Below are positions 9,584-63,058 of a DNA stretch of 64,000 nucleotides, in pieces. Below the pieces are notes generated by a model. It saw nothing but the letters and a program-made list of their open reading frames with translations, ran no database searches and had not been told where the DNA came from. Position numbers and translations under genes: made by a program. Source of the DNA: Eucalyptus grandis (taxonomy: Eukaryota; Streptophyta; Magnoliopsida; Myrtales; Myrtaceae); contig NC_052618.1 in the NCBI RefSeq assembly GCF_016545825.1, positions 38,138,196 through 38,202,195 of the forward strand, in the 5' to 3' direction. How positions within the stretch are numbered: position 1 is the first letter of the stretch; each line of letters opens with the position of its first letter.

Positions 9584-10575
9584 TTTTATTCTTTTTATAC
9601 TTTCTTCGTCCGTAAATTACTGGAACGTCTGTCATTGTGATTTGCAGTCCACTACCTATACTTCCCTAATATTTTGGGGCTTGTTTTGTAAACAGTTTCA
9701 AATAGCTTCGCCATGAAGGACAGTTTTCGGGCATTTAGCTGGAACTTCTTCCTGATTTTGATCTTGCCCCTGCTCTCATTCCATCATATTCAGTGATGAC
9801 ATCTGTATCGAGGACTGTCACGCTTGATGCTTACTTGTATGTCTGTCGCCTTCAATGCACGCCGGTATGTCCGTAAGTTTTGCGCATGTCACAGAGATGC
9901 CAGGTGCCTGTTTTATCCTTTGGCGCTTCTGTACCATAGAATTGTAGCTTCCCTTGTTCCAAATGGAAAAAATTGATTCTTCTTTTTTGGGGTTCCATTC
10001 TTAGATGGCTAGAATTATTGTTTGCTAGTTTAGATGGCCTGGAGTTGTGCAATGTTGAAACTCTATTGCACCTTCAAGAATTCGATGTTGTCGCCAATGT
10101 GTCCAGACTTGCGATTTTTTTTCTTTATTCATTTTCTGCAATGGCAACGTATGCGATTTTCCTGTTCAATTTGAATCCCCATTCCAATTGTCCTCTGCGA
10201 TGACTCAAGCACGTCTAACTAGGTTCCAGTGACTACTTGATTTCTTCCTGTGGCTCATACGAGAAGTGTTTGATTATTTCAGTTTCTCCTCTCCATCATA
10301 TGTCTACACCTTTAATTCATGTTACTGTCATGGAAGGATTGTACAACTTAGCGATGAAAACTTGACTGAATCATTTCTCATTGTAGGAGTCGGTTTGAGG
10401 TCGTAGATCAATGGTTGAATCCTCAAATTTAGGGCAAGCTAGAATTTTGTGCTCCAAGAACAATCATAGATTATTTAGTGCAAAATATGACTCCACATCA
10501 GTGAGAGAGGGGGAAGAAAGTTTGCTGAACATGGAATACAAAGGGGAAAAATGATGATACACGCACATTTCATCT
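9584..10575. other. Intergenic, no gene seen
   Basis: About 1 kb of AT-rich sequence between the Copia fragment and the end of the FMO pseudogene. Small open frames at 9973-10203 (+) show no recognisable domain. The part next to 10576 is the likely 3' flank of the FMO gene. Confidence 0.5.
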
Positions 10576-20905: not shown

Positions 20906-21067
20906 TGCAGGAGGGCAAATTGCCAAAGTTTGCGTCCTCTAAAAAAAAAAAACTGACATTTCTTGGGTGCATAAAATATAATTCAATCTATTCAATTAGT
21001 TTGAATGAGTATTGACATGTCCATTTTATCCATTGGAAAACACTAATTCATGTAATCACCAAGAAAT

Positions 21068-22207: not shown

Positions 22208-22569
22208 ATCTAAAATACACATGCTGCGGCATTGTCTACTATATGATAGGCATCGGAATTAGCTTGGAATCTCGGCTTCAGACTTGTCATGCTAGAATGA
22301 GACGTGCTGGTTCGATTCATCCTTGTATCATCATATCGAATGATCCGAAAATGCTCGTTGGTAGGGAAATCAGCGATTTCCCTGAAGCATACTTACGAAG
22401 AAGCAACTTTATCTACTTTTGATTTGACTTTTCTCATGTCATGACCTCTTCGTACACAACAAAAAGGAAAAAAGAAAAGTTTAGATGCGCATAAGATCTG
22501 GAACCCGGGGGATCTCGAACCAAGATCGATACTCGATCATGTTTGATGCAATTGCCGCCTAAAGGACTG
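22208..22569. other. 3' flank shared by the two P450 copies
   Basis: No gene. From about 22310 the stretch can be aligned with 29180-29426 (gaagcatactta, acttttctcatgt and tcgatactcgatcat blocks recur in order). The P450 duplication therefore includes downstream flank. Confidence 0.6.
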
Positions 22570-24222
22570 CTAGTTCCATGACTCCGAAAGTTCTACGTTA
22601 ACGCCATCTTTAAAACCAAGTATGGGATTGCGGTAGACATTTCCTATCTTGATTTCCGTCCACCTGTAAATAAGTAGACAGAAAAGATCATGGGACAACT
22701 GCCATGAATTCTCGGCCCCACATTTTCTTGCCAGAGACAACCAGTATATTCGCAGAAGAATTGAGAATTTGTCTACCCAAACTTTGTGACCAACACATGA
22801 AGAAATGCACATAAGAAGGCTCGAGTGTATTATGCTCCAACACATTGTCTCATTCCTCCACCGAAAGGCATAAAGCTCTTCAATACTGTGCCCGAATCAA
22901 GATCCTGATAGGCAATGGACATCAAGTTATGCCAAGAAGACAGGAAAAAATTCAGTCAATGAAGACGTATTGAAAAGAGAGATCAAGAAACATCTGCTAG
23001 TTAAGTTTCAAGGCACGCACCTTCCAGCACCAAGGGTTAAATTCAAGAGGATTCTCAAACACATTGGGATTCGTGTGGAGCAGTAGTGACGACCATGATC
23101 GACCACCCTTTTGGGATCATAAATCCTGCAAATGCATAGTTTGTGACAGTATATTGCTAATTAGAGTTTCAAAAGTGCGAACATTTATCGAGACCACTTA
23201 CCGTTAACTGGGATATCTCGAACTACTCTTCGGAGTAGCCCTGGAGCAGTATTTGCCAGCCTGAGTGTTTCATTTATTACCTGAAGGTTTTTTTTTCATA
23301 GAGTACTCTTTACATGTTGGAACATGATTCTTCTTTGAAGTATAGAAGGCATAGATATAAAAATGCCAATGAAGGGATTCCGCGTCACCTGCATCGTGAA
23401 AGTCATCGACTTGTATTCATCCCAGCAAAGTGCAGTACTTTGGCCCTCTCTCCTTTCAAGGATCAGTTTGTGCTCGGCCTACGATGTAATTGTTGCCATT
23501 ATTGAACAATTTTTTACAATATGGCATAAGAGAATTTTTTAGATATTGTTAGTTCATACGCATTAGGTAAATCCTCTTACCCTTAATTCCTCTAGGATTG
23601 CTGGGGTCTCGGACAGTAGCTTGAGGATCATAGCCAGCATTGACGAAATAGACTCAGAGCTTGCAAAGATGCCTGCAAACATCATCTGAACTATGGAAAT
23701 CCTCTGTTAGGAACTCCTGATCATGCATACTGTCAATTGCCTGATCGAGAAAATCTACATTGCTTGCTTTCCCTGCATTGAGTATCTCCCTCAGGATACC
23801 TTTGAGCATATCTATCAATTTCTTGTGTTCCTGGAGTAAAACGATGAATTGTCAAAAGGATTAAGATTCATGTATTTGGCTCAAAAGTTTCCAAGGTTTT
23901 CCCTAAGCTAAGTTTCTACTTCATAGCCCATGCTTTCCAACTCCCTAACGCCTATTCTGTCAGTCTTCAATGACAAAAAAAAAAAAAAAAAAACTCAGAT
24001 ATACTATATTTTTGTAACAATTTAGCTGGTAAATTGGCACTAAATGCAATTTTTGACTGCAAGGGAAAGTGAAATGGTTATTGAGATTTTCTTCCGACGA
24101 AAAAATCTGAGAAAACATAAGAGGTGTTGCAAGTTTTCAAATACCTTTAGGCACCTATGGTATGTAGTACCTGGGACATTAAGAGGAAAGGCCATGAAAC
24201 ATTTTCTAGTCCACAACTCCAA
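22570..24222 (-). pseudogene. CYP87-type cytochrome P450 pseudogene, copy 1, 5'-truncated
   Basis: CYP87 enzymes are membrane-bound plant monooxygenases, several of them acting on triterpenoids or steroids. The 3' exons are present on the minus strand: the tail of exon 3 (MAFPLNVPGTTYHRCLK), exon 4 (EHKKLIDMLKGILRE, LTEDF block), exon 5 (LCWDEYKSMTFTMQ), exon 6 (VINETLRLANTAPGLLRR), then the heme region FGGGMRQCVGA and the C-terminus ending SESWN. Exons 1, 2 and most of 3 are missing. Damage includes an extra C after LTEDF, a missing base in the MVVTTA...HTNP block, and a GAA-to-TAA stop two residues after the heme Cys-Val-Gly. Clearly non-functional. The upstream side was later invaded by a solo LTR at 24391. 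Confidence 0.85.
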
Positions 24223-28417: not shown

Positions 28418-29426
28418 GATCCAGTCAACGTCAGGTATGGTACAATCAACAAACAACTCGGTCAACTCGGGTCCTGGGTTCGAGCCAGGTCGACCCATTT
28501 CCCAACTTCGTTGACATAAGCCCTAGCGAGAGCCCGCCAAGCACGTGCAACGCACACACTGCTACAATGCGCGCATGGCCATGCATGGAAGCACGTACAA
28601 CGTCCCCTAGTGTCTTGCGACCACTCAAAATGCTTTTCTCAACGAGCTCTTTCCATTTATGTGATCAAATTTGATTTTTACCGCACAAAAAATCATGAAA
28701 AATGCTCGAATCCGTACATTCAAGTTCTAGATTATGGTTGTTCTGATGCCACATGTAAGTTGTGAAAGCGCACTGAAGATCTCCATAATTAGAATTAAGA
28801 ATGCATATAAATAAGTAAAAAGATCTGTGCGCTTGATTTAAAATCCATCATTCTTGATGTGAAACAATAATGATTCAAAGCTCAAGTGTTTCTCCTCTAT
28901 TGTCCTTTGTATCATTGGCTCAATGTGACTACCCTCACCCTTAGTGTTCCATAAATGCTTCTTATATGAGGATATTTGTGTGTTAGGATTAGATGAGAGA
29001 CATGATCATTATTTATAGAATTTTCGGCTAGACCATCTCATCACAGGTTGAGCTCAACTTGGCCCATAATAACCAGTTCAATATTAGACTAATTAATAAT
29101 ATCTCACTTTATTAGATTAATCCTGTAGAATAGTAAATTACAGTATCAATTAATATAGTTCACATCAGAAAAATTCTGACGATTCATCCTTATATTGTTA
29201 TAATAAATGACCCCAAAATGCTTATCCCAAAATGCTTATCGGTAAAAATCATCAATCTTCCTGGAAGCATACTTATAGAGAAGCAATTTTATGTGCTTTT
29301 TATTTAGACTTTTCTCATGTTTTGACCTCTTCGTACGCTGCAAAAAGGCAAAAGGAAAAGTTTAGATGTGCATGATATCTAAAGGATGGGGATCTTTAAT
29401 TCAGATCGATACTCGATCATAATATC
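28418..29426. other. Intergenic between LTR A fragment and P450 copy 2
   Basis: No gene seen. The last 250 bases are the 3' flank shared with P450 copy 1. Confidence 0.55.
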
Positions 29427-30197
29427 CTAGTCCCATGACTCTGAAAGCTTTACGCTAACACCATCTTTAAAACCTAGTACGGGATTGCGGTAGACATCTC
29501 CTATCTTGATTTCCGTCCACCTGTAAATAAGTAGACATAAAAGAAGATCATGAGACAACTGCCACGAGATCTCGGCCACATTTTCTTGCCAGAGACAACC
29601 AATATATTTGGAAAAGGAATGAGAATTTGTCTACCTAAATTTTGTGACCAACACATGAAGAAATGCACATAAGAAGGCTCGAGTGTATTCTGCACCCACA
29701 CATTGTCTCATTCCTCCACCAAAAGGCGTGAAGTTCTGCGATATTGTGCCTGAATCTAGATACTGATATGCAATGGACATCAAGATATGCCAAGAAGACA
29801 GAAAAAATTCAGTCCATGAAGATTTATTGAAGAGAAAGATCAAGAAATATCTGCTAGCTTTTCAAGTGTCGCACCTTCCAGCGCCAAGGGTTAAATTCAA
29901 GAGGATTCTCAAACACATTGTGATTGGTATGAAGAGCGGTCGTGACTACCATGATCGACCACCCTTTGGGATCGTAAATCCTGCAAGTGCATAGTTTGTG
30001 AGAGTATATTGCTAATTAGAGTTTCAAAAGTGCAAACATCCATCGGGACCACTTACCTTTCAGTGGGATATCTTGTAATGCTCTTCGGAGTACCCTTGGA
30101 ACGGTATTTGCCAGCCTGAGTGTTTCATTTATTACCTGAAGTGTTTTTTTTTTCAATGAGTACTTTTACATGTTGGAACATGCTTGCATAGAAGGCG

Positions 30198-30232
<35 letters not shown>

Positions 30233-32277
30233 TTGTGAAGGGATTCTGGTCACCCGCATCGTGAAAGTCATCGACTTGTATTCATCCCAACAAAGTGCAG
30301 TACTTTTGCTCTCTCTTTCAAGGATCAGTTTGTGCTCGCCTACGATGTAATCGTTGCCATTATTGAACAATTTTTCACAATATGGCAAGTTCATACTCGT
30401 TAAGTAAATCTTCTTACCCTTAATTCTGCTAGGACTGTTGGGGTCTCAGACAGTAGCTTGAAGATCATAGCCAGCATTATCAAAATAGACTCAGAACTTG
30501 CGAGGATGCCCGCAAACATCAACTGAACTATGAAATCCTCTGTCAGGAACTCCTGATCGCGCATGCTATCAATTGCTTGATCAAGAAAATCCACATTGCT
30601 TGTTTTCCCTGAATCGAGTCTCTCCTTCAGGATACCTCTGAGCATATCTATCAATTTCCCTGTGTTCCCGGAGTGAAACGATGAATTGTCAAAAGATTAA
30701 GATTCATGTATTTGGTTCCAAACTTTTTTGTTTCCAAGGTTTGCCTTAAACTAATTTTCTACTTCATAAACCATTCTTTCCTACTCCTTTAAGCCTATTC
30801 TGTCAGTCCTCTATGGCTAAAGAAAAAACTCAGATATACTATCTTTTTGAACCATTTAGGTGTTGAAGTTGGCACTACGGGCATTTCCTAACTGCAGGGG
30901 AAAATGAAATGGCGATTGAGATTTTCTTCCGTCGATAAAATTGTAAGAAAACATAAGAGGTGTTGCAATTTTCAAATTACCTTTAGGCACCTACGGTATG
31001 CAGTACCAGGGAAATTCAAGGGAAATGCCATGAAACCTCTCAAGAACCTGTTGAACCTCTCATTGGTAGCGTCTGCTGAAGCCTCATCAGCATCATAACT
31101 AAAAAGTTGCTTCCCCGCGAAATCGAACATCATCTAAAAGATGGTTAGTTCAACAAAATAACTTGTAAGCTCAATGAAAATATTTCAATGCTGTAAATTT
31201 TAAAGGAAACATGCCCCAAACGGACAAACTAGAGTTTTACAGCAGAAGCAGCTTGTTTCACTTCGATGCACGGTTGGCTGGACCACATTCTTAGACATCT
31301 CTCAACCCATTCCTCTATTTTCTGAAGCAGCTTTTCTCTGAGGATGTCGGAGCCAAAGTGATTTAGAAAGATTCTTCTTATGTACTTGTGAACAAGACCG
31401 ACTCTGCTCAAGCGGGATTCGCCCTCCATTGCAAGTATCTTGGCAAAGGTGTCAAAGTACCACATTTCAACGAGCCTCCTTCTTGCTGAAGGATGTGATT
31501 ATTAAATTCTGGGTCTACAGAAAAAATGATTGGCCGACCTGCTAGACTGGTTCGGAATATTGGCCCATACCTGAAAATAGAATACATGATTATCACGTTA
31601 ATTCTTTCAGGAAGCAAGAGAACCAGTTTCCTTTGCGGCAATCTCTATTAAGCAAACATCGTTGAAAGAGTTTAAGAATGGACTCAAGCGCTTTCTCATC
31701 GTTCAAGGTTCTCAAAATCCATTTATTTTTTTTATATTCAACGTTAAAAGAAGTTCGAAAGGTCGTTATGGGTTTGGCCTCGACATAGAAAAATTTCAGT
31801 AGTTCAGAAACCAAAGAATGTTACCAGTAGAAAAACTAAACTCGACCTGACAGATTAAAAACATAGAATACTCGATTTGTAACTATATAGTTGAACAGAT
31901 AATCTTTTAGTGCAACACCATACCATTACAACTTGACGCACACGTGATATTCACAATAAGGTTGAAACCCAAGCCAATCTAATCGGGTTTTCAAGAGTCA
32001 GCCCACACAAGACCAAATTAATATGGACCCTGCAATCTACAAAGCATTGGGTGGAAGGATGTTACCTCTGAACTCTCTTTCTAATGAACGGATGAAGGTC
32101 AAGAGAGTAGCTGGGAATCAAGATCTTAAGAGTCTCCCCAAGGAGAGGCAAACCCATTGAACCTGGAGGCAAAACCCCATTCCATCTGGGTTTTCTCCAC
32201 TCGTAGACCCAACGAACACAGTACAATAAAGTCGCTACCGCAAGGCACAATGAAACGACCCACATTTTTCTCTTCAA
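29427..32277 (-). pseudogene. CYP87-type cytochrome P450 pseudogene, copy 2, nine exons
   Basis: All nine exons are visible: 32277-32066, 31570-31241, 31133-30981, 30667-30418, 30339-30254, 30135-30057, 29980-29875, 29762-29635 and 29520-29427. Exon 1 has a signal anchor (VVSLCLAVATLLYCV) and the proline-rich hinge PPGSMGLPLLGE. The I-helix region is in exon 4, ETLR (ExxR) in exon 6, and the heme-binding loop FGGGMRQCVGAEY in exon 8. Lesions: one base missing after LQQEG in exon 2, loss of the intron 3 acceptor AG (now GG) plus an extra base at the start of exon 4, and one base missing at the start of exon 5, where copy 1 reads AEHKLILE. It is not functional as written. The product resembles CYP87A proteins along its length. 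Both copies lie on the same strand with shared 3' flank, a tandem duplication. Confidence 0.88.
30199..30230. repeat. (TA)n microsatellite in P450 copy 2
   Basis: An alternating ta run within the intron between exons 5 and 6 of P450 copy 2. It is absent at the same place in copy 1. Confidence 0.9.
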
Positions 32278-43212: not shown

Positions 43213-44928
43213 CCTCGGAGCTGAACTGAGATGCTTTCCATCTTCCTTATTTTAATTTCTTAAAAATCCCTACTTTCCCAATAAGTAAATTTGGATTATT
43301 TGGATTAAAAATGATTAAACTTCCAATTCCCATTTTCTTATTTTAACTAAAGTTAGGATGAGTAAAGAATATTTCACTACTGATAGCATAAAAGATTTTT
43401 TTATCAACTTGGGTTGGTTCTTAATTTTCGTGGAAAATTATGAGACATATGATCGAAAGAACTTATGACCATCAAAAGGAAAATTATGCCCATATTAAAT
43501 AAAAATTATGACCCATTATGTAATTTTTTAATAATAGAAAAAGTGATGTACTATGAACTTAGGCAGCTTGCTATTTTTTTGTGGACAAATAGAAATCATG
43601 GGATCTATATTACTTGCGACAACAAAATGGAAATTATGTTCTGTAAAGAAGGTTACAAAAATGATATGTGATGGATAAGTTGTTATTATTGGCAAAAATT
43701 GTGAATTTCAAAGGAAGAGTGCTATCAATTAGCCAATATCCGTTCTTGTTTTTTTTTTTTTTTTTTGTGTGTAAATCATCATACTAGATGATCTTGAAAA
43801 GATTCTTTTGTAGTTCACATCAAAATTGAAAATAATTAAGTTATTTATCCAAATGATACTGATCTTTTTTGGTACGTTTACGAAAGTAGATATAAACAAA
43901 ACCCTAATTTCAATATGATATGAATCTAAAAAAACACCTTTGGTTATTGTAATTTTTGGAGATGATGATCTGGCATGGGTTTACAATCTTAATTTGATAC
44001 ATGCGAGTAAATTCTAACCCTTGTTAATATAATGCATTCGGAGATTTTAATATTCATGATATGTCGAAATTTGTTATCAAACTAATGGGGAATACATGGA
44101 ATATAAATATACTTTTTTATTGGTTTAAAAATTGCTTAACTGGGATTTCTGCACATTGACATTGACACTCTCCTAATCTTGTTCTCAATTTGTGTTGAAT
44201 GAAAGTCCGCAAGCTGAGTTATGATGGACTTTGACTAGAGATAACTTAGCCCTTGTTGGATTTTTAACTTCTAATTTTGGTATTTTGGTCATAACAAGTC
44301 AACGACTACTTAGCTTTCACTAACCTTGCACATTCTTTCAATTTAATGTTTGCAAGGCCAGAACTAGTGCACCAATATAAATAGGAGAAAAATTATCAAA
44401 ACAATTCTATTTTTTTTCCGTCATAGATATTTTACAATTGTGTCAATTCAATTCATCCAATCAATTTTGTGCGGCGAGCACTAATGTGAAGGCCATCCAA
44501 TGCCAGCCATCTTGCCGATGCTAATGTAAATAATTTTAAAAATATTTTATTATTTTATTAAATTTTCCTTTTTTTTTATTTCTCTTTTTTTTCTTTATCA
44601 GACTAAATTAGCACAAATGCAAAGGTTTTAGAATTGAATTAACAAAAAATAAGGTTTTAGGACTGAATAGGAAAAATTGTAATAGATTTAGGATGTTTTT
44701 GGTAATTTTCCTTATGAATCGGTTAGATGCTTAAAGAGCACTTTCAATACATTATTTTAACTTGTGGGCATAAAATATCAAAATTGTATGATTCTATCAT
44801 GTTCGATTTAGTCGAATCTAAATCGGTAACATTCATTAGCCTCTATATTTGTATGAGGTCGGTGAATTTATTTTTTTTTCATTTATTTGGTGAATACAAA
44901 GTCAACCTACCTAGTTTGAAATATTGGA
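43213..44928. other. AT-rich intergenic, no gene seen
   Basis: Long AT-rich stretch with homopolymer runs (poly(T) at 43748-43766). Open frames are short and unrecognised. Confidence 0.55.
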
Positions 44929-45483
44929 TGTGACATCCCGAAATTCGACCCCGTTTCGATCAAATGAAATGTGCATATTGTCGGCGCGCCTATGGTCTTT
45001 TTTCTCTAAGCTGATCACTCACGAGTTAATTAACCTTTTGGGTGAAGCCGTTAAGAGATATATCCGCGGAAAACTCCCTAAAAGCTACCTAATGATTGGA
45101 TTGGACTAAAATCGCGTCCTGGCCGATTTTAACTATGAAATTTAATTCGGTTTCGGGAATCGAATATTCGGCGTGTCACGATTCATTTTTAGGATCTTGT
45201 CTCATCGTTCGTAGAATTATCGACGAGTCCGAAATTTCGGAAAAGAAATTATTTGAGGAAAAATTGAAGACAGAAAGAAAATAGAAAGAGAAAAGAAAAG
45301 AAAAAAAAAAGAATAATGGTATTATTTTATTTTATTTCTCTCTCTCCCTCTCTCTTCTTTTCTCTCTCTCTCTTTCTTCCTCTTTTTCCCTCGTGTGATT
45401 CCCCCTCCACCGAATTGTGGGCTGGCTTCCACCTTACTTTTCCTTTTTTCTTCTTTTTGACTTTTCAACTCTCTCTCTTAACC

Positions 45484-45492
45484 CTCCCTCAC
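45484..45492. repeat. 9 bp target site duplication, left
   Basis: ctccctcac, identical to 54775-54783, directly outside the inverted repeat. Confidence 0.85.
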
Positions 45493-46640
45493 GAGAAAAT
45501 ATTCAGTGGTTAGCAATCGCCACGTCATCGTCCTACGTGGTGCGCACTTACCACTCGGAGATCGACACGCGTCCTGTGGGACCCGCTGGAAAATGGAGGG
45601 GCGGGCTCGGCTTGGCTCGGCTCGCTGAAGAAGAAAAGACAGGTCAAGACTCCTGCCCAAAAGATTTCTCTCTCCTGCATTGAATTTTCTGCAATTTTCT
45701 CTCTCTCTCTCACTTTCTCTCCTCCTCCCTCTCGCGACGTCCGCTCTGCTCTCTCTCTCCCCCCTCCGCGAAGTCGTCCGACGCCGACGCCGACGCAGCC
45801 TTCGCTTCCTCCCCTGAACTCGACTCTGACGCCGACGCAGCCTCCGCTTCCTCCCCTGAACCCAACTCTGACGCCGACGCCCCTCCGCCTCCCTCTCGCG
45901 ACCTCTAGTCCGCTCTCTCTCTCTCGTCCTCGAAGTCGCGCCTCTCTTCCAGCAAACCCCGACGCCGACGCCCCTCCACCGGTTGCCTCCGTCGGCGTCG
46001 GAGTCCGTCGCCCCCGTCTCCTCCGCCTCCGCCTACGCGCCCGACGCCAACGCGTCGAACCACGATGGCGAAAATGGAGGAGAGAAAAACGACGAAGCAG
46101 AAGACGGAGACGAAGAAGCAGAAGCGCGCGCGCTCGGGGTTCTGGACATGGGTCGTCGCGTCGGTCGCGTTCCGGCTCGCCCTCGTCTTCCTCCCTAGGA
46201 ACCTCGGCCTATCCACCCGCCCCGAGGTCACCAGCTCTCTCACCAGCATTCGCCGCCGTAACGCCGCCTCTCTTCGCTTCGTCGATCGATTCCCGATCCC
46301 CGATCCCCCCTCCTCCCTTGAAATCTTGGAGGTCCATTTTCTGATACGATTTCTGGTTTTTCTTGTTTGTGCCGCCTGCAGTTGGCGAAGGCTACTGGTT
46401 GAAGCAGTCGGTGATGTCTCCCTACGCTCCTTTGCTGTTGCTTGTTCTCGGACCTCTCGCTGTCAAAAGGTAACTACCGGAGTATAATCGCCGATGCATT
46501 TTGAAGGCTAGGTTGATTGTGAGCTTTGCTGGTTATCTGCTAGAACTGAACTAGATTTATCTGGCGCTATCTAAGCGGAGGCTGTGGCTTGTGCGAAAAG
46601 TTGTTTTCGATTCCAGAAATTGAATTTCTTTTTAGGGGAG
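45493..46640 (+). repeat. Left terminal inverted repeat, 1.15 kb
   Basis: The reverse complement of 53525-54774 matches this segment end to end, from gagaaaatattcag to the last common string tttttaggggag. Differences are scattered substitutions and short indels. The main difference is a deletion of about 128 bp here, which removes PIG-U intron 2 and adjoining exon bases. Outer parts are CT/CG-rich leader with gacgccgacgc iterations; inner parts carry PIG-U exons. Confidence 0.9.
46065..46469 (+). pseudogene. PIGU: PIG-U (GPI transamidase subunit) 5' fragment in left inverted repeat
   Basis: PIG-U is a membrane subunit of the ER complex that attaches GPI anchors to proteins. Exon 1 (46065-46257) is open: a lysine-rich start (MAKMEERKTT), the first membrane segment FWTWVVASVAFRLALVFLPR, then STRPEVTSSLTSIRR. 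After a GT-AG intron, the next exon (46382-46469) reads GEGYWLKQSVMSPYA joined to LLLLVLGPLAVKR and a GT donor. The expected GSMYHGSP stretch and intron 2 are deleted, though the frame is kept. Only about the first 90 residues of a roughly 400-residue protein are present. It is transcribed inward, toward the RING exons on the same strand. The upstream CT-rich leader may be the original promoter and 5' untranslated region. Confidence 0.8.
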
Positions 46641-47608
46641 ACTTGGAAGATGTTCTCCGGAGCAGTTCTGCATATAGGAACTGCATTTGCTTTAATTGCG
46701 TGGTTGATAATTTTTTTTACGTGGTATGTTGCACCTCGCACTTACTCTTTTAATGCCTTAACAGTGAGCATTTCTTTGGATGATGAGCTCCACAAAAGTC
46801 AGTGATAAAATTGGTTTTCAATTGTTGCTGATTAATCACCCAGATAAAGCCTGTTACTGAGAACTGAAAATATACATGTTCAGTTAAAAATATTCCTGCT
46901 TTCATGCCCTTGCTTTTATGTTGCCTTGATAAGTGCACCTCTGCAATTGGAGATTGACCAGGGCAAATTTTTGTTCCCATGGAATTAGCAGTTCATTGTT
47001 TTCTGTCACATTAGTCAGATTGGAAAGCATGGTTCAAATGACAACAAGGGGAGAAAAAGTGACATCGAAAAAGAACTTGGATTCTCTGTCATTGCCCGTG
47101 GGCATTATATGGCTTTCTAATGTCTACTTAGTCTAATATTCAACATTTACTGTACTGGGAATAAGCATGTAATAACGAGATACTTGAAATGCTCAAGGTA
47201 TATGGTTAAGAGCACTTTATTGCTGCCTGCTACCAGACACATGGCGAGCGTGAGAGAGCAAGAACAAGCATACGACCAGTTGGAGGACAAGATGAGAAGA
47301 GAATGTGAGAAACGAGAAAAACAATTAATGGGTCAATGTAACCCTGAAAAAAGTTATTTAGTTACTGTAGAGCAATATTGCTCTATGGTCAATCCCGCCT
47401 TTTGGTAGACGGTATTCTTGAGATTTATGTTTAGCTAGGTCTACTTATCTGATAGAGTTGTGCATACTTGAGCTTCGAGCCCACGTCTTGTGCTGAGCCT
47501 TCATGAGATCATCAATTAGTAATAAAAATAATTACCTTGAAGAGGATATTTTAACTGAGCTCAGCATTTTGATAATCTATTTCGACTCTCTCTTGTCATG
47601 ATGTGCAG
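46641..47608. other. Pack-MULE interior between PIG-U fragment and RING exons
   Basis: No recognised exon. 46584-46805 (+) has a hydrophobic frame (ALIAWLIIFFTWYV) and 47184-47408 (+) a charged frame. Neither matches the missing first exon of the RING protein, which normally starts with a Cys-rich MGAVCCCF-type motif. Confidence 0.5.
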
Positions 47609-49474
47609 TACAACACAGTGTTATTTCGGAGAGAGATTCATGCCGTCCCTTCTTCCATTCAGGAAGCATCCACAATGACTTCTACAGCGTCACCTGACAA
47701 TTATTTTTCTGACATGTACCACTCTCCTCCAAGGCCTTTGCCCTATGACGTAGAGCCAAGGCGTTTGTGCATGCAGAGGGATGGACTGGTTCCAAGGCAT
47801 GAGAAGGGTTCAAGTCATGCCAATGAGGAATCAGAACCTCTTAGGAGTGACAAGAATGGGGAATCGGATAATATTTGCTCAGAAGGCAAATGGACTAACT
47901 ATGCACATGAAAAAGGTTTTAAAGAGCAACCATATAAGACCTCACTTAAACTATCCTTGGCAAAAGCGAATGCTGATATTGGGCATATTTATACGACATC
48001 AGAAGAGGAAGATGTTTGTCCGACGTGTCTTGAAGGTAAAAGTTTTTGTATTAGAAGATTGGTTGCTTGTTGCTTTCTTATTGAGCTGACAATTATCAGC
48101 GGGCTAAGCTAATTCTGAATAACGTGAAGTGCTGAATAAGTTTTAGAAAAGGGATGAGACATAATCTTAGGCTAGTTCAACTTGTTCACTTTCATGCCTA
48201 GATGTAGTTGAGTTTTCAGCTTGTAAACTATTTAGAGATCCAATCTACTGGTGAACTTGATTTTTTTCTGAAAGAAATTACCTTACCATTGTATGCTTTT
48301 GTGCTTTCCTTTTTTTCCTGGGAATATGCTGGCACAGATGCAGATTCTTTAGAGAAAATTTTGAAGAGAACTTTCATCTGAAAAAAGAATAAAAATTGAC
48401 AATAAGCTTATGTGGAAACTAGGGAAGTACTTCCATGAACTTGGAATTTGGGTCTGATTATTGCCTCAGACAGTGGCAGCAGAAGTATTGTGTGCAAGTT
48501 GGCTTGTTCAGTATTGGTTTATAGTTTTGTAACATGTCACTGCAATGTTGTGATTAATTAAATTGTTGATGTTCTTGATGAATTCTATCAATTTTTACTG
48601 CTTACTAAATGCAGAATATACGCCTGAGAATCCAAGAATAATGACAAAATGCTCTCACCATTTCCATCTTGGTTGCATATATGAGTGGAAGGAGAGAAGT
48701 GACATCTGCCCTGTATGTGGCAAGGTAATTCTTTTCCTAGATCCCAACAGCAAACATGCATACATACATGCATACATGTGATTACTGTGCTCCAATGATT
48801 GCTTCACCGTGGCACAGACCACGATTCTTAGTTGTTGTCTGACCTCACAGAGTGACCTTTCTCAGGGAAACTCTGTTTTTGGGGTAGGAATTGGGATTGT
48901 TTCTCCCTCTGCTTTATGCACGTTGGGTTGCAATCATTTTAAGGACACGTTAAGAGCTTTTTAAAAGATGATATGCTATTTGGTTTTCAACTGGGATCGG
49001 TAACTTTTGAATGGTTATAACCTCCATACTAATCCCTGTACAAGTCCTACTGACACCCAGGATAAGCTGTTATGCTTGCAGCTTATTGCTTTATAATTGG
49101 AGGCTTTCCTTTTCTTGGGGATTTTGCCAGGCTGGGTAGTTGTCATAAAAAGAAAGATCATCGAACAATTACCTAAAACAATGGCAGAAAATAGTAGTAC
49201 ATTTCTAGCCTCATGAGCTTCTATGGGTTGAGCATGCTGCCAACATTTCGGCAGCCTCTCATCGACTGATAGTTGTGGCTTCCTATGATTTTGCGGCTTC
49301 ACAAGTTATGGGATTGCTATATGTCTTCTATATTGATTTAGAGGTGGTGCCATTTTGTGTGGGCAGTTGAGAAAAATCAAGATGTTCTGGTATTTCAACT
49401 GTTTTCTTCTCCTAGTTGTGTGCTTAATTGGACCTTTTTCTGTTTGACAGGTGATGGTGTTCGATGAGACTTGA
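47609..49474 (+). pseudogene. RING-H2 E3 ubiquitin ligase fragment (At3g02290-like), exon 1 missing
   Basis: Three exons with GT-AG borders: 47609-48035, 48615-48724 and 49451-49474. They read through without a stop from YNTVLFRREIHAVPSS to the end VMVFDET. The RING-H2 domain is complete: CPTC, then CSHHFHLGC, then CPVC, giving C3H2C3 zinc ligands. The preceding serine-rich region (RPLPYDVEPRR, EKGSSHANEESEPLRSD) matches the plant RING family typified by Arabidopsis At3g02290. The usual first exon with an N-terminal Cys-rich motif is absent, so this is a 5'-truncated copy inside the Mutator-like element. Direct splicing from the PIG-U donor at 46469 would be out of frame and stop after about 22 codons. 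Without a native start it is listed as a fragment, although the RING part could still be translated. Confidence 0.8.
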
Positions 49475-50429
49475 TCTTAGGTGAATGCTCATGTTGACGA
49501 TACTGTCAGCACTGGGAAGAGAAAAAGAATCCTGTTAATATACTTGATGAAATGTAAAGAAGTCTCTGTGCATATTCCAATTTCTCAGACTCTCTCTCCA
49601 AAGACCCATTATACATTCCTTCTAAATTATCTTTTACTTTGTTTAGACTTGGTTATGCTGCTTGAAACTGCAATTGTAAATACGAGCAATATCTCAAGTG
49701 CATATTGGTAAATGTAATTGTCTGGTCGTTGCCTTTCCATTTTTGGGTTTGGTTTAGTTATAGAAACTACATATGAAAGAAAGTGCATAAGTGGCCAACC
49801 AAACGACACGCTGTCTTGCTTTCGCGTTAAGGTGCTGTCAGGTTCTCTTCTCTGAGTTTGCTGATGCTCGGGCTTTGCCCTTGGTAGAGCGACGTGTAAG
49901 ACTCTGCGACTTGTTACTTCGGTGCTTGCTGGGCTTCTGGGGTTAGATTTACAATGAAATGCTTAATGTCGGTCCCAGTGCATGACTTCGCATCTGTAGT
50001 TAAGTCACAAGTTTAGCAAACGGCAGCTTGATTTACCTATGGATTCTCAAGCAAAATGCCGTAGTTTTTCAGACTCCGGCCAAGTGAAGCTGGCAACACT
50101 TTCTGTTCACTCAGAAAAAGAGAGTACGAGAGCAAAAGATCGGATGTTCATTTCTTTGCCAGGCTTTGGGTAATTGAAACGAGTAAATCAATCGTCAGGT
50201 ATGTGAGAAAAGCGATTTCGCATAACCATAAAGCACATCACAAGTGGACGTTTATCTGTTGAAACAAGGTGTTGGCATGCTATGGCAAAAACAGAGCCAG
50301 CAAAATCTCCAAGAACCGTAAGAATTTATTCACTCATTTTTCCTATATGGTATTTATAGTAAAACAGATAACACAACCTGCTTTTATTTATTTATAAGTA
50401 AACGCACAAGGATGACATTTTCATTTCAT
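49475..50429. other. Pack-MULE interior between the two captured genes
   Basis: The 3' flanks of the converging RING (+) and DsbA-like (-) genes. No other gene is recognised. Confidence 0.5.
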
Positions 50430-52499
50430 CTACTTTCCACTAGCGATAATCTCAAAGGCTCGCAGGAACACCTCGGGGGGCTGGCCACCACTCAATCTGT
50501 GCTTCCCATTTATCTGTTGAAAATAATGATCTCAGAAAAGGTATCTCTATGTCATCCAAAAAATTAAGGCAAAATATGAGAGAGAGACAGAGACAGAGAG
50601 CCAGGGGGGGAGAGAGAGAGAACATCATTTACCACGAAATGCGGAACCCCAGAAATGTTCGATGAGTACTGTTCGAGCTCCTCATTTACCTTGATGGAGC
50701 AAAAGAAAATTATGAAAAGGTTCGTGAGATTCTTAGAATCAGCGGCAAACATCTGGAAGCTGCCAAAACTAAAGAGATTAACTGCAGTAGATTTCAACAG
50801 GATCATTGAAAAATTCATGGAAAAAGGAGATAACACTTTCCTGAGTCAGCTTAGAGAAATGAAATCTTTTAACTCCGAAAAGCTCCTTCTAGATATTCTA
50901 CATAATTAGTCACGCATTCTCTCCTGATCTCTAGGTTCGAATGTGAAGCAATGTGTCTGTGTGTGTGAGAGAGAGAGAGAGAGCCTCTTGCAGTCCATTA
51001 TTTGGATTATCCAGAAACTCGGCTGCCCCGTCTACTCCAGCCTTGGCAGCAGCTTCCACAAGGAATTCTCTGAATCCACGTTATACAAAGTGTTAAGTTC
51101 GAGTGTGCACTAAAAATTAAAATGAAGACGAGCGAGCTTCATCAAAAGAATGTTGGAAAAAGCTTCATTTCTAGCTTCGTGTTAAGTATAGCTTAACCAA
51201 ATTTCCCTGGGGATAGAGTAAAGTCTGGCAAAATGGTCTCTTTATGATTCAAATGAAAAATTAAGGACATACGATGAAATTGGTCAGCCTCTTTTTTTTT
51301 TTTTTTTTTGACATTTTCTCAGAATATGAGGATGTAACGCTAAAAATTAGAGAAGAATGGCCCCTCTCTCCCAGCTTAGTAACCTTTATTTAGGATAACC
51401 AGCACACCCAACAATGATTTCCCTGTGTCTTACTCTCACATTCAAACACTATTAAGAACAACCGTAATGGTTCGGAGAGATCTTACGTTTATCTTCCAGA
51501 CAAATTGGGCAGCAGAATCAGCTAAACCAAACTTTTTCTATCTTGGGAAGAGGCTTAAACTATTCAGACCTAGGTTAAGCCAAAGGTCATGATGCATGTT
51601 TGACAATATGGCTGTAGAGGATATTAGATTCACAAAGACTATTCCCAATGGAATAAAGCCAATTCTTAAGAAAAAATTACAGGGGAAGAAGATGCATCTT
51701 AAGAGATGATGCAGTGATAAGGGATTTTCCAAAGCTCAGCAATCCACTTCGATGCATGTGTGGACACATACAACCACATGTAGCTCAATGCATGTACAGG
51801 AAGTGAATCTACTTGTCACCAATATATCTTCCCTGGGTGAAGTAGCCAATAAATAGCTCCTCCACAAGTTTTTGTTGCTTCTCGAGCCTTCATGTCCCAG
51901 CATAGTATATAAGCCTGTGGCTATCCACAGTATTTCCCCTGCTCATATATTATATATGTTACCAATCTTCTCAGCACAACCTCTTGCTTTGGGAATTTAA
52001 ACATCCAATGTACACATGATATCATAAGCATCTTACGTGAGACCAGACATGTTGTATTCCAATCCAATACCTCTAAAAACCTGCAAAACGTGCAGGATAT
52101 AAAATCAATAGTTGCATAAGTAACAAATTTATGGTGTTCAAAAGGAGAAAGGGAAAACCTCGCGGATACAAGCTTCCATGCTCTCTGATCGAGATCCAAA
52201 CTTTTTCAGGTAATACTCTTTCTTGTTGACACCTTCTTTTGGGGCAGATGGATTCAGAAAAAAAGGATGCCATTTGATCTGCAAGCCCGATGAGACATCA
52301 GTGAGAATGGAAAAGGCACACGTGCATGAATGAGAGAGAGATAGAGAGAGAGAGCTTCAAAATCAAACTGATCCTTTGCAGTGGCTATAGCCTTGTCTAA
52401 ATTCTTTTTGCCTACACAGCACCACGGGCAAACAGTATCCGAACTAATGTCAATTCAAATGAGCTTCTTCCCAGCATTGTTATCAGCTGACTCGGCCAT
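50430..52499 (-). pseudogene. DsbA/FrnE-like thioredoxin-fold oxidoreductase pseudogene, seven exons
   Basis: These are DSBA-domain proteins of the FrnE type (plant example At5g38900), predicted thiol oxidoreductases or isomerases. Exons are 52499-52356, 52278-52159, 52080-52037, 51938-51813, 51069-50985, 50689-50633 and 50513-50430. Exon 1 starts MAESADNNAGKKLI and holds the active-site CPWC. Later blocks are WHPFFLNPSAPKEGV, LFIGYFTQGRYIGDK, GVDGAAEFLDNPNNGLQE and SGVPHFV, ending INGKHRLSGGQPPEVF. Lesions: codon 15 is TGA (CGA expected), and exon 4 has a +1/-1 indel pair that creates a TGA after YYAGT. Introns 1 and 5 start GC instead of GT, each followed by a CT repeat. The whole coding region with introns is present, so the locus was copied as genomic DNA, not from mRNA. 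Confidence 0.85.
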
Positions 52500-53524
52500 A
52501 ATCTTCACTGATCGGCAGATATTCTGGATAACATAGATGAGTCAGATTCCTATCTGTCCAGGATAGCATCAGTACTAGACTCTTTATTGTGAGACAACCG
52601 CTTCAAAGTTATCAAGCAGATGAAAACACGATAATTCCTAGGCATGGAGTTTACATCTAATCAGTAATCGGGGTACCACTCAATTTCTCTCCAGTCACGA
52701 AGAAGTTGTTTCTACTCCTGCTCGTATATTGGCAGTGGTTCCAGCTAAATATTCTAGCCATCGCAAGTAGGCATTTGAAGGACAGAGGAAAAATATTGAG
52801 TTCCTTAGTTAATCCGCCAATTATACCATGAACTAGAACTACCAAGACTGGGCTACAAAATTGATTTACTAAGTAATGCGGCGGAGACTCCTTTAGGCAT
52901 TTGAAGACGACTCGCCAGCTTGAACGTCAGGTCAGTCACAGTTTTCCGACATCACTCAGCTAACTAATTTCGCAAACTATCGTAGTATCCCTGGCATCGC
53001 TGTTTTCCTGATGCATGGGGCTACATCTATCTTAGAAATCAGTTACCCCACTGAGAAAAATGAACGATGATTATCTAACCTGCAAAAAACACTACTTTGG
53101 TACACATTATCCGCCCAATCAGTGTGGACTCGAAATGGGGTAGAAGAAAAAAGGGTCGGCCAAAGGAGAATCCACATTTCAGAGGCGGACTCCCTTTTCC
53201 CAGCAGAAATCAACCCAATAGTTGACTTCCCAAAATGTTCGACTCAGAGAATCAAAGATAGGACCAGAAGCATTGTAATCTGTACTTAGGTTAGATCCTT
53301 CCAGGTATTTGACAACACTGAATTACTCATGCTTTGAACAAGAGACGAGTACAATAAAGATCACCACACATCACATTGCATGAAAATAGTAAATCGCGAA
53401 CTACCTACGAGACACGAGAGAAGTAGATACCTGCATAGTAGAAGATGCTCTGGTTGCCCTTCAATTCTGCATAGCGAGAAAGCTACAGAACATAATTAAC
53501 TTCACAACACGCAAGAAACTAAGA
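52500..53524. other. Pack-MULE interior upstream of the DsbA-like gene
   Basis: About 1 kb with no recognised exon. It may be the native 5' flank of the DsbA-like gene captured together with it. Confidence 0.45.
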
Positions 53525-54774
53525 CTCCCCTAAAAAGAAATTCAATTTCTGGAATCGAAAACAACTTTTCGCACAAGCCACAGCCTCCGCTTAGATAGCG
53601 CCAGATAAATCTAGTTCAATTCTAGCAGATAACCAGCAAAGCTCACAATCAACCTAGCCTTCAAAATGCATCGGCGATTATACTCCGGTAGTTACCTTTT
53701 GACAGCGAGAGGTCCGAGAACAAGCAACAGCAAAGGAGAACCGTGATACATGGAACCTGTGGAAGGGATCAAAGCATCAAACAGCGACACACCAGTAGGC
53801 AAACAAGCAGCTTCCTTCCTACAGAGATCGAACAGAGCCGAACCTGCGTAGGGAGACATCACCGACTGCTTCAACCGGTAGCCTTCGCCAACTGCAGGCG
53901 GCACAAACAAGAATAACCAGAAATCGTATCAGAAAATGGACCTCCAAGATTTCAAGGGAGGAGGGGGGATCGGGGATCGGGAATCGATCGACGGAGCGAA
54001 GAGAGGCGGCGTTACGGCGGCGAATGCTGGTGAGAGAGCTGGCGACCTCGGGGCGGGTGGATAGGCCGAGGTTCCCTGGGGAGGAAGACGAGGGCGAGCC
54101 GGAACGAGACCGACGCGACGACCCATGTCCCGAGAACCCCGAGCGCGCGCTTGTTTCTTCGTCTCCGTCTTCGCTTCGTCATTTCTCTCTCCTCCATTTT
54201 CGCCGTCGTGGTTCGACGCGTTGGCGTCGGGCGCGTAGGCGGAGGCGGAGGAGACGGGGGCGACGGACTCCGACGCCGACGGAGGCAACCGGCGGAGGGG
54301 CGTCGGCGTCGGGGTTTGCTGGAAGAGAGGCGCGACTTCGAGGACGAGAGAGAGAGCGGACTAGAGGTCGCGAGAGGAAGGCGGAGGGGCGTCGGCGTCG
54401 AGTCGGGTTCCGGGAGGAAGCGGAGGCTGCGTCGGCGTCGAGTCGGGTTCGGGGAGGAAGCGAAGGCTGCGTCGACATCGGCGTCGGCGTCGGACGACTT
54501 CGCGGAGGGGGAGAGAGAGAGCGGAGCGGACGTCGCGAGAGGGAGGAGGAGAGAAAGTAAGAGAGAGAGAAAATTGCAGAAAATTCAATGCAGGAGAGAG
54601 AAATCTTTTGGGCGGGAGTCTTGACCTGTCTTTTCTTCTTCAGCGAGCCGAGCCAAGCCGAGCCCGCCCCTCCATTTTCAGCGGGTCCCACAGGACGCGT
54701 GTCGATCTCCGAGTGGTAAGTGCGCACCACGTAGGACGATGACGTGGCAATTGCTAACCACTGAATATTTTCTC
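53525..54774 (-). repeat. Right terminal inverted repeat, 1.25 kb
   Basis: The partner of 45493-46640 in opposite orientation. It retains the PIG-U intron 2 lost in the left copy. Homology stops at 53525: beyond it the two sides of the interior are unrelated. Confidence 0.9.
53696..54227 (-). pseudogene. PIGU: PIG-U 5' fragment in right inverted repeat
   Basis: Same gene start as in the left repeat, on the opposite strand. It keeps three exons: exon 1, exon 2 (GEGYRLKQSVMSPYAG, Trp changed to Arg) and exon 3 (53756-53696, SMYHGSPLLLLVLGPLAVKR) with GT-AG introns. The first ATG is ACG here; the next in-frame ATG follows three codons later. Exon 1 has frame-changing indels in the lysine-rich region and after VFLPR. 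It points inward toward the DsbA-like gene on the same strand. Comparing the two repeats shows independent decay after capture. Confidence 0.8.
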
Positions 54775-54783
54775 CTCCCTCAC
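54775..54783. repeat. 9 bp target site duplication, right
   Basis: ctccctcac, identical to 45484-45492. The interrupted LTR sequence resumes after it. Confidence 0.85.
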
Positions 54784-56039
54784 ACTCTCTCTCGCTCGAC
54801 ACTCTCTTCCTCCCCCTCTCTGTTCGTGTGAAGCCAGCAGACAGAAGCAGAAATGGAAGCAGCAGCTCGCCTGGGATAGGAGCAGCCCGCTGTCGCCGCC
54901 CACGCTCCTCCGTTCGCCGGTCGTCCTTCCTCGCGCGCGCACGCGTGCAGCCGCACGATCGCCTGCCCTCTCCACCGTCCGGGCGTCCCCACCGTGCGAC
55001 CCCAGCCCCTGTTCCGCCCCTGTCCAGCCACCTCCGGCAGCCGCCCAGCTCCGTCCGGCCACCGTCCGCCCTCCCCGGAGCTCCGCTTGCTCTCCCGACC
55101 CCTTGCCGTCCCCAACCATCTCCTTTTCCCCTCTGTTTTGCAGCAACTCAGCAAGTTGCCGAGTGGGTTTCCAGCAGCTTCGGGCTCGCTTTTGATCTTT
55201 TCGGGCCCCGAACTCGAGCCGTGCTTTGGGGTTTATTGTTCCTCGTGTCGCTCCCATCGGATTGATCCGATTTGCGCGCGATTCCAGTGAGTAATCTCAC
55301 TAATCCTTGCTTAGTGGATTAATTATTTAGTTTTAATTAATTAGGTTTAGGTGGTTAGATTACTGTTTATTAGTCAATTGTGATGCGAATTAGGTAATTT
55401 GATGATGCAATTAGCACGTAGATGTGGTCTATTATTTATTAAAGGTAGCTCGGGATTTTCCCGACCCTTATCGGGCTTCAATTTGGCAATCGGGCCTAAG
55501 TGGAATTTTTAGTAATTAAATATTATTTTTCGAAATTAATTTAATTAAATATTTATTTTTCAGAAATTCAACCTGGGTGGCCAGTGATCGGAATTTTATG
55601 TTGATGATCGTGGTGCAGCCCGTTTATTTAATTGGGCTTTATTTTGAGCTAAATTGAATTTTTAATATTTATTATTAATTTTCGAAATTAATTAATTATT
55701 TATTTATTTATTTTTTGGAAATTAAGGCTGAGATAGCCGGCGACCGAAATTTCATGCTGATTGTCATGGTACAGTCCATTTATTTAATTGAGCTTGATTT
55801 TGTGCTAAATTGATTTATGAGTGATTTTAGGATTTATTCCTAAATTATTTGATTTTGGTTATTAATTGGAAAATAACCAGGTGTCGGTTGACAGCACAAA
55901 AAGTGTTTTAGTGGGCTATAGAGAATGGTGGGAATTATGAAAGAGGAAATTATAGTATTTTGGCTAAGACCGATCGTATACCCACACAACTATTTTATCG
56001 GGTATGATAAAAATAATAGAAATATTGGACGATGGAGAT

Positions 56040-56420
56040 GGTATATTATATCGACCTACGGGCGATATGTCAGCTTTGGGTGAGTAGTATACCTTATTAT
56101 TAGCTTTGGGTGAGCATATGGTATACTATATCGGCCTTCGGGTAATATGTCAGCTTTGGGTGAGCAGTATACCGGTATACTATATCGACCTACGGACCTA
56201 CGGGCGATATGTTAGCTTTAGGTGAGCAGTATACCTTATTATCAACTTTGAGCGAGCAATATATTATCAGCTTTGGGTGAGCATATATAGTATACTAAAT
56301 TGGCCTAAGGGCCCTACTTTATCAGCTTTGGGCGAGTATATGCATAGTATACTATATTATCAGCTTTGGGCGAGCTATACTATCTATTTGTCAGCTTTGG
56401 GTGGGCAGTCCTGATTTGAT
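56040..56420. repeat. Degenerate tandem repeat in LTR A copy 3
   Basis: 'tcagctttgggtgagca' alternates with 'tatactatatcgacctacgggcgatatg' about six to eight times with variable spacing. A different repeat (acgctgaattacggctcagc) occupies the corresponding part of copy 1 at 5770-5910. Confidence 0.8.
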
Positions 56421-57229
56421 AGGACTTTATAGATAGTATTGAATGTGCCGACCAAGCATGGGTCGTGATGACATGTAATCGATTAAGTCGATTGATCATT
56501 GTTTTGATATGATGTTGTGAATTGATTGATTGAATGGAAATGACCGTGAGTGGTCCTGTTGATATGTAATCGACTAGGTCGATTTGATTGATGCTTCGAT
56601 CTCTGATGTGATTGCTTGGGTGTCTATTTGATCTGTGCTAACATGCAGGTGGGATCTGAGGCCAAGGTAAGTCCTCTGACTCGTGCTATGCTTAGGCAAC
56701 CATGTGGTGTATTGGTTCCCTAATTGAGTCTTAGTGGGGTAGAACTCGCTGAGACGTGATCTCATTGGTTATTGAATAACCATTTCAGGACCCTGAGGAG
56801 GAGCCGAGGAGGAGGAACCTGAGGAGGAGAAAGATTTTTGAAGAAGAAGAAGATGATCTAGAGAGGGATCTTGAGTACAACCCAGATGTGGATTGAGATC
56901 CCATCCCTTTTATGAACCCTGTCTTAGTGTAGATAGGTGTGAGACAAGTATGCTATGAATAGTATTGTAAATATTCTATGAGTTGTGCTGTTAATAAAAG
57001 TGTGGTTGTGAATTTCAATATGAAAAATATGGCCAGCTTTTCTATCACATTGTTTTATTGTTTGAGAATTTATAGTTGCTTCCGCATGCGTAATAAACAG
57101 AAAGGGTCGGCGATACTTAGTCCTGGGATATCGCACTTTAAAATCGACCAAAGGTAAGGGATGTGTGCGTGCCTAAGGATCGGGGCGTGACATTGGAGAC
57201 GGGTCAAACATGTGATGGGTCAAGCATTG

Positions 57230-61558: not shown

Positions 61559-61588
<30 letters not shown>

Positions 61589-63058
61589 TCGGCCGCCCCA
61601 GCTGAAGCAAACCCCACCATTCTCCTCTTTCACCGTGTGGCTCGGTTGTCTCGAGCCGCACCAGCCGAACCACACCTTCATCAACTCGTCCACGTGTGGA
61701 CCCAGTGGCTTCAACTTGAACCCAGCCATCCCCATGCGGGCCCTCCACTTCCCGAACACCTCACATCTTTCAACCCGGTCCCTACCTTCGCAAGCAACCA
61801 AGTTCACCAATTTCCGACTCAGCCCCTCCTCCGCCCTCGTCGCTCGCTCCGAGTTGTACCTAAAAAAATTAGAGTCGAACGTCTCGAGCAGCGCCTCGTA
61901 GTACGCCAGCGCCTCCCCCACGCGCATCGGGAATGGCGCCATGTTCCCGTTCATCTCCTGCTCCACCAGCGTCACCACCCGCGGCGCCAGACCCTTCACG
62001 CGCCGGAGGAGCTCGTTGCGTGGATTCTCCACAGACACGCTCTCGTCCGGCATTCTGTACAGCTTGAACGCCAAGTTCACCGCCAGCATCTCGTCTGGCT
62101 CGCAACCTAGCGAGTCGCGGCTCAACTCGCTCAGCTTCTGCCTCACAATGTTAAATACTAACCTAAATCCGCTACGGGCCGCGAGATCGCTCAGTCCATC
62201 CCCAAACATCCTGAGTCTCTTCTCAGGGTAGAGGCTGTCTGCGAGCGCCGTGATCTTGAGGGTGAATTGATTGCCCGCCTGACGCAAGGACAGCGCGTAA
62301 AGGAGATCTATGTACTGTCGTTCCCAACCAATATCGAAATCAATGACATGGAGCTTGTTAGTGGAGGGTTGCTCCGATGCAGCCTCCAAAATCGCGATAT
62401 TGGCAGCGATGCAACCGCCCCTGAAAGAAGGAGACAGATCGTAAAGTGACCGAACCGACGACACATGTTCCTCGGTGAACAACTCCGTCACGGGAGGGGG
62501 GTAATCGACTGGGCTCACGCGCGATTCAAGCGCAGAAATCATGTATCCTATCAATTTCTGCTTTGAAGTTCTCATGGGGTTCGGCACGGCAGACAAGCGT
62601 CTCAGGATCTCCGAAGCCACGTCTACTCTGCCCTCGTATATCGCCGTCGCAGCCTTTACTAGCGACTGTTCCGACTTGATGGAAAATGACCCCCGGATGG
62701 GGGGCTTGACGCTCTCTATCGGAGACCTCCGGACGGGGACAGGGGTCTTGACGCTCTCTAACGGAGACATGATGCTCTCACTTCCCTCGGAGACCTCGGA
62801 ACTGACAAAGGCGTTGCTCGGGACCTGGAAGCCCTCATAGGACTCAGCCCCGCTCGATAGGGATTGGGTGTTGCTGCTGAACGACCCGAGGACGCTGACG
62901 ATCAGATCTCCCGCAAACAAGGGCTGCCGTGGGTCATCGCCAGTTTGAGACTGAGCGTCGAAGGCATCTCTGAGCTTCTTGGGATTTTGGCCACAGAGCT
63001 CTTGGATCGCGCGCTTGCGGCTGGAGGAGAGGTTCTTAGGCCAAGCGGAACGCTCCAT
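61559..63058 (-). CDS. SCL8: GRAS-family transcription regulator, SCARECROW-LIKE 8-like
   Basis: GRAS proteins are plant nuclear regulators. SCL8-type members have a variant VHIID motif and are less studied than SCARECROW. This intronless frame of 499 codons has a disordered Ser/Pro-rich N-terminus (1-125, with SPLESVK/SPIESVK repeats). A GRAS domain follows at about 130-499: leucine-rich region 1 (VKAATAIYEGRVDVASEILR), the VHIID equivalent LHVIDFDIG at 236-244, the second leucine-rich region, PFYRE-type blocks around 325-400, and the SAW region ending ASAWR. No stops or frameshifts. The start ATG is followed by MERSAWPKNL; a longer N-terminus in some relatives suggests either a shorter paralogue or an upstream start, but none was found in frame nearby. 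The best candidate for a working gene in the window. Confidence 0.85.

Follow-up and report, generated by a model that had tools for sequence, protein, structure and literature searches.

A Eucalyptus grandis Pack-MULE with PIG-U exons in its terminal inverted repeats and a contiguous two-gene block as cargo

We analysed a 64,000-nucleotide stretch of the Eucalyptus grandis genome (the window; contig NC_052618.1, C7:38138196-38202195 in chromosomal coordinates), of which positions 45493-54774 form a 9,282-bp non-autonomous Mutator-like element (MULE), a Pack-MULE (C7:38183688-38192969). Very probably it belongs to an E. grandis family whose terminal inverted repeats (TIRs) were extended by host DNA in four steps. 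A MULE-type end would have gained about 1 kb of the gene PIG-U, from 15 bp before the ATG into an intron; this PIG-U-bearing end would have come to stand on both sides in several lineages, the window's included, giving kilobase-long arms. In the window lineage, one contiguous stretch of C9 carrying convergent RING-H2 and DsbA genes would have filled the interior, joined by 4-5 bp of common sequence on each side as if a break had been repaired by copying an ectopic template. The composite would then have been mobilised as a whole, reaching at least C7, inside a solo long terminal repeat (LTR), and C2, by a transposase that must, we infer, have been supplied in trans.

The ends, arms and insertion site are laid out as follows (window positions).

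44929-57192, plus strand: solo LTR entered by the element, with ends TGTGACATCC...GGGGCGTGACA; 2,973 bp without the element
45484-45492, plus strand: left copy of the target site duplication (TSD) CTCCCTCAC, exact; one copy only in the empty site
45493-46640, plus strand: left arm (TIR), 1,148 bp, PIG-U from 46059 onward
46059-46640, plus strand: PIG-U segment of the left arm, exons 1-3 and part of the next intron; native counterpart C5:7079016-7079762
53235-54212, minus strand: PIG-U segment of the right side, exons 1-4; native counterpart C5:7079016-7080058
53525-54774, minus strand: right arm (TIR), 1,250 bp
54775-54783, plus strand: right copy of the TSD CTCCCTCAC, exact; one copy only in the empty site

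Both termini are exact, GAGAAAATATTCAG starting at 45493 and CTGAATATTTTCTC ending at 54774, and the element has the long TIRs and the duplication of about 9 bp (CTCCCTCAC twice) that mark a MULE. The arms align at 95.6% over 944 columns and then at 99.1% over 218 more, the two parts being split by a 108-bp gap whose bases are absent from the left arm; their inner limits, 46640 and 53525, are set by the switch of one side from PIG-U to C9-derived sequence. Identity of a 9-mer at one fixed pair of positions is expected by chance at 3.8e-6 under uniform and 1.3e-5 under local composition. The flanks are CT-rich and have a 9-mer in common at 6 of 38,592 position pairs, the real pair counted in, a doubt that is removed by an empty site with a single CTCCCTCAC: in searches of the 616.5-Mb assembly (36 contigs), the joined flanks (260 bases, one CTCCCTCAC) matched C3:32068309-32068562 over their full length at 93%, and no element lies there. 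Because the entered repeat measures 2,973 bp without the insert and has TTGGA on either side (44924-44928 and 57193-57197), it is a solo LTR; related stretches occur in reverse orientation within the window at 8640-5140.

PIG-U coding exons sit inside both arms, a point that the original prediction, made from the bare sequence, overlooked. The donor is a separate locus, C5:7079031-7085082, and the element's match to native C5:7079016-7080058 runs from 15 bp upstream of the ATG into an intron; 884 of 938 aligned bases are identical for the right side, and 515 of 551 for the left. On the right, exon 1 is frameshifted and the segment extends past the arm. On the left, the spliced open reading frame (ORF) is open, and the 108 bp missing at 46427 comprise an 87-bp intron and 21 coding bases. 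We had considered this 87-bp stretch of the right arm as a foreign insert and rejected that reading, since the native gene has a 98-bp counterpart with GT...AG ends. Arms carrying the PIG-U promoter were likewise rejected, as the native match begins only 15 bp before the ATG; nothing in the native PIG-U locus, taken from 1.2 kb upstream of the ATG, matched arm positions 1-566.

The remainder of the interior is a single block of C9 DNA, with the following features.

46637-46640, plus strand: left joint between PIG-U and C9 sequence, GGAG, 4-bp microhomology
46637-53239, minus strand: captured block, contiguous and collinear with C9:33622481-33628970, holding RING, DsbA and the intergenic DNA
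46643-49474, plus strand: RING-H2 copy (At3g02290 type), first codons missing
46643-46723 (partial), 47609-48034, 48614-48724 and last coding near 49451-49474, plus strand: exons of the RING-H2 copy
49760-49934, plus strand: 175-bp extra stretch, in both element copies and not at the C9 donor
50430-52526, minus strand: DsbA/FrnE-like copy, seven exons; the donor's upstream (first) exon absent
51890-51892, minus strand: in-frame TGA in the DsbA copy, a glutamine codon in the donor
52455-52457, minus strand: in-frame TGA in the DsbA copy, an arginine codon in the donor
53235-53239, plus strand: right joint between C9 and PIG-U sequence, ATGTT, 5-bp microhomology

Collinearity with C9 extends over about 6.5 kb, as one piece of 3,135 columns at 95.8% and another of 3,372 columns at 92.8%, and its sole break is the 175-bp stretch, which is either an insertion in the element or a loss at the donor. 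At the donor locus, found through the RING match, the two genes are native convergent neighbours (RING 33626873-33629000, minus; DsbA 33622068-33625322, plus). The limits of the block fall within RING exon 1 and the first DsbA intron, which is why the RING copy is without its first codons and the DsbA copy without its upstream exon. The cargo therefore comes from two loci, the C9 block and C5 PIG-U, not three. Separate capture of three genes, as implied by the original prediction of cargo from three unrelated genes, was rejected because RING and DsbA arrive together, and its complete seven-exon coding region is a DsbA copy with a missing exon and two stops. In a table compiled by eye from protein listings (the best 120 clusters per gene, so that counts are minima, misses may be paralogs and the table is perhaps incomplete), DsbA and RING lie on contigs of equal length in at least 17 of 24 species, with consecutive locus tags in at least 6 of the 12 species whose tags are numbered.

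Against its donor, the RING copy has no stops in 204 compared codons and a ratio of nonsynonymous to synonymous substitution (dN/dS) of 0.56 (13 nonsynonymous, 6 synonymous), and the DsbA copy, with stops left out, has 0.18; in both ratios the donor branch and the copy branch are mixed, and neither ratio is evidence of function. We infer that the captured genes are passengers, DsbA being broken and RING lacking its start. The E. grandis annotation EUGRSUZ_L00721, labelled 'partial', begins after the first DsbA TGA and skips the second, and is therefore most likely a copy of the window element. The Eucalyptus globulus protein ACJRO7_031416 aligns with 77% of the element's RING, used as query, at 99% identity, probably reflecting a copy of the element in that species.

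Both joints of the block can be read to the base. On the left, the PIG-U match stops at 46640 and the C9 match begins at 46637. Among 200,000 simulated joints, microhomology of at least 4 bp arose in 1.8% and of at least 5 bp in 0.56%. Its presence at both joints fits gap repair with template switching, as the mechanism by which the interior would have been filled. For animal Pack-TIRs, microhomology is reported at one or more joints in 67.6% of cases (PMC8277862).

A second copy of the element, which the original prediction had proposed looking for, lies at C2:55248578-55258963 (10,386 bp) in opposite orientation and has both arms and the entire interior. Across 7,158 aligned columns the interiors are 98.3% identical. 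Of 6,596 sites in the C9-derived block, 38 (0.58%) differ between the copies; 17 sites are window-specific and 18 C2-specific, and 266 separate both copies from the donor. Since the copies differ at 38 sites against 266 to the donor, the last movement is much younger than the capture. In the C2 copy the RING frame is broken, one exon being matched in two frames, as is also seen in the ORF. At the inner edge of one C2 arm lies a stretch of about 969 bp (approximately C2:55249827-55250795) with ends GGGCCCGTTTGTTT and AAACAAACACACCC and GC-rich, repetitive contents; it was rejected as a PIG-U intron, being absent from the native gene at that place, and has the look of a nested insert.

The arms define a family. 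Their first 400 bases have at least 57 matches in the genome, the window's own counted (40 of 399 candidates scored). We examined 19 TIR loci besides the window, mostly best matches and not a random choice; PIG-U exons were present at 16, of which 12 have ARPC5 exons joined to them, the loci lacking PIG-U being C3:40.48 Mb, C8:28.10 Mb and C8:28.44 Mb. At three of the first four loci with inward-facing TIR matches (C2, C6:3.23 Mb and C1:26.6 Mb), PIG-U is in both arms, and the fourth, at C3:40.48 Mb, has just about 230 bp of the outer TIR in common. This last relative (C3:40483695-40491190, 7,496 bp) has 1.26-kb arms of different content and sucrose synthase exons. Cargo varies elsewhere too: the C1:26.6 Mb relative has ARPC5 and HD-Zip exons, and C8:7057292-7064847, with a TIR of about 130 bp, carries PIG-U and ARPC5 on one side only, within a perfect 9-bp duplication (CATAAAGAG). 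The relative at C6:3232362-3241768 also has a perfect duplication (AGGACTTCG); its interior yielded nothing identifiable except one ARPC5 exon. Among the five relatives with both ends, two TSDs are thus perfect, one matches at 8 of 9 bases, one at 7 of 9, and C2 fails. The right terminus of a sixth relative, C1:26608797, was not found, and most of the other fetched loci showed only one terminus within the stretch retrieved.

With 86 of 122 candidates scored, PIG-U exon 1 is matched at 53 or more places genome-wide, a count that takes in the native gene and the left arm of the element; these form at least 43 clusters (native included) on 9 chromosomes; TIR presence among these clusters was checked at fetched loci only. 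At least nine inward-facing exon-1 pairs besides the window's lie within 15 kb of each other. At C6:8.85 Mb and C6:33.21 Mb further PIG-U exons stand alongside, and these matches may be other kinds of duplicate. Two short inward-facing pairs on C5 (C5:48820059-48822253 and C5:48976771-48978963), about 2 kb apart within each pair, are possibly compact elements of little besides two arms, and candidates for hairpin RNA production. A tree built from the arm stretch with PIG-U places all four arms of the two copies together (89/88), and likewise the two window arms (84/84).

The family has two terminus types, GAGAAAATATTCAG and GAGAAAATATTGGG. A second type, GAGAAAATATTGGGTACCC or near it, was seen at C1:26608797, C6:3232362, C3:17907828 and C8:19610866; the PIG-U stretch is common to the GAGAAAATATTGGGTACCC and GAGAAAATATTCAGTGG types, as though TIR lineages had swapped the contents of their arms. 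C8:38408976-38414368 has the family TIR with a junction of PIG-U and ARPC5 exons, a candidate young chimeric gene and the best fit to the annotated chimeric protein EUGRSUZ_H02816.

No transposase was found inside the element: of the 767 PF10551 candidates, none of the 150 that were scored falls within C7:38183688-38192969, and the portion of window ORFs scanned contained none (Pfam returned little on single short exons). Within these searches the element lacks an internal transposase, as expected of a Pack-MULE, and it also has host fragments with traceable donors and, in the C2 copy, evidence of moving as a unit. Two PF10551 matches share the orientation of a family TIR and follow it at a distance of 4-6 kb, one at C8:28433586 (TIR at 28439425) and the other at C9:6509064 (TIR at 6504931); this probably ties the family to MULE transposases and names no working source. 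The original prediction stood as to the Pack-MULE identity, the exact termini, the arm lengths, the TSD and an empty site, the insertion into an LTR, the gene names (PIG-U, RING-H2 of At3g02290 type, DsbA/FrnE), donors in the same genome and the absence of transposase; its three unrelated genes and complete DsbA did not, and the search for the autonomous relative it had suggested yielded only decayed transposase fragments behind the same TIR at two loci.

Several observations weigh against the four-step history. The reading frames of both TIR-linked transposases are decayed, neither locus showed another terminus within the stretch retrieved, and an intact autonomous family member was not found. 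The empty site on C3 belongs to a paralogous copy of the LTR and is not orthologous, and the C2 copy is flanked by a GT microsatellite with no recognisable TSD. The arm tree is weak, with 2 of 12 inner branches strongly supported, and the order from one-sided to two-sided PIG-U ends is based on few loci.

Other readings of the locus are less probable. Large inverted repeats pose a known assembly hazard, and the structure could in principle be misassembled, or be a segmental duplication in which an inverted repeat arose by chance, with no transposon involved; the TSD, the paralogous empty site with one 9-mer, the second copy on C2 and the perfect 9-bp duplications at two relatives make this extremely unlikely. 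The probability of a Helitron or another gene-capturing element without TIRs is negligible, as Helitrons are not known to have TIRs or target duplications and the window element has both. Captured host sequences are carried by Helitrons too (PMC13317346).

It is very unlikely that the element persists through a working new gene, either a PIG-U/RING chimera or the RING ORF. The open, spliceable left-arm PIG-U exons, the stop-free RING codons with their dN/dS against the donor, and the annotation of an in-frame PIG-U-ARPC5 relative as gene EUGRSUZ_H02816 speak for it. A PIG-U/RING fusion protein was nevertheless rejected, because PIG-U spliced to RING exon 2 shifts frame and stops after 113 residues; the RING copy has no first codons, the DsbA copy has two stops, the RING frame is interrupted on C2, and the mixed branches of dN/dS leave no constraint shown on the copy. 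That the inverted PIG-U arms make a hairpin RNA tuning native PIG-U, or act as a silencing shield by way of an essential gene, is unlikely: the arms match the native gene closely, the inward-facing exon-1 pairs recur, and a review suggests that capturing important genes may camouflage a transposable element (PMC13317346), but the abundance of PIG-U arms can be hitch-hiking. A more specific form is a speculation that we also rate as unlikely, namely that PIG-U exons shield the family from small-RNA silencing while the arms serve as a reusable chassis for new cargo (ARPC5, HD-Zip, RING-DsbA) taken up by template switching; silencing the arms would also hit PIG-U, a presumably essential GPI-transamidase gene. 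We prefer the Pack-MULE with TIRs extended by host DNA.

Elsewhere in the window, an intact single-exon GRAS-domain gene of 499 codons (61559-63058, minus strand; PF03514, E = 6.5e-89) lies about 6.8 kb from the element. Direct repeats at 8377-9584 and 19701-20906 (94.5%) and at 22343-24200 and 29224-31036 (83%) are possibly LTR pairs of older retroelements, parts of which are related to the solo LTR.

Like other Pack-MULEs, the window element has a 9-bp TSD, long TIRs, intron-bearing host fragments from more than one locus and no transposase found. Pack-MULEs are usually 2-3 kb (PMC9168764), in contrast to its 9.3 kb, and it further differs in its single 6.5-kb block comprising nearly all of two neighbouring genes and their intergenic DNA. 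MULE TIRs are typically 100-500 bp and duplications 9-11 bp, and acquired sequence can become part of extended TIRs (PMC3310237), as host coding DNA has here; what sets this family apart is that 16 of the 19 other TIR loci fetched have these same exons, with varying interiors. Multi-gene cargo, which the original prediction thought unusual, is already known (PMC4858842, PMC9168764): two or more parents are reported for 5-10% of the putative genes that derive from MULEs in rice relatives (PMC4858842). Host sequence in extended MULE TIRs is thus not new, and the size, the contiguous two-gene block and the recurring arm exons are features of a variant. EUGRSUZ_H02816 has the same PIG-U exons, and its best-fitting locus (C8:38408547 onward) bears the same TIR, but its cargo is ARPC5 and its annotated fusion is in frame. 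Among the matches listed from the open-licence PMC literature, none was a paper on Eucalyptus Pack-MULEs or on PIG-U in MULEs.

The way in which MULEs acquire host genes is not settled (PMC3310237, PMC8277862). The short microhomology at element/filler joints resembles that in Pack-TIRs and in the gap-filling and FoSTeST models; unlike in the animal study of Pack-TIRs (PMC8277862), both joints of one plant element are readable here against both donors in the same genome. Its donors, a paralogous empty site and a sibling, all in one genome, allow a base-by-base reading of this element. It shows that a MULE can carry a two-gene stretch of chromosome, and that a captured coding segment can join the TIR and recur with changing cargo. 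Two questions thereby become testable: whether capture occurs by template-switch gap repair, and whether essential-gene exons in TIRs aid escape from silencing. The family matters more than the single copy.

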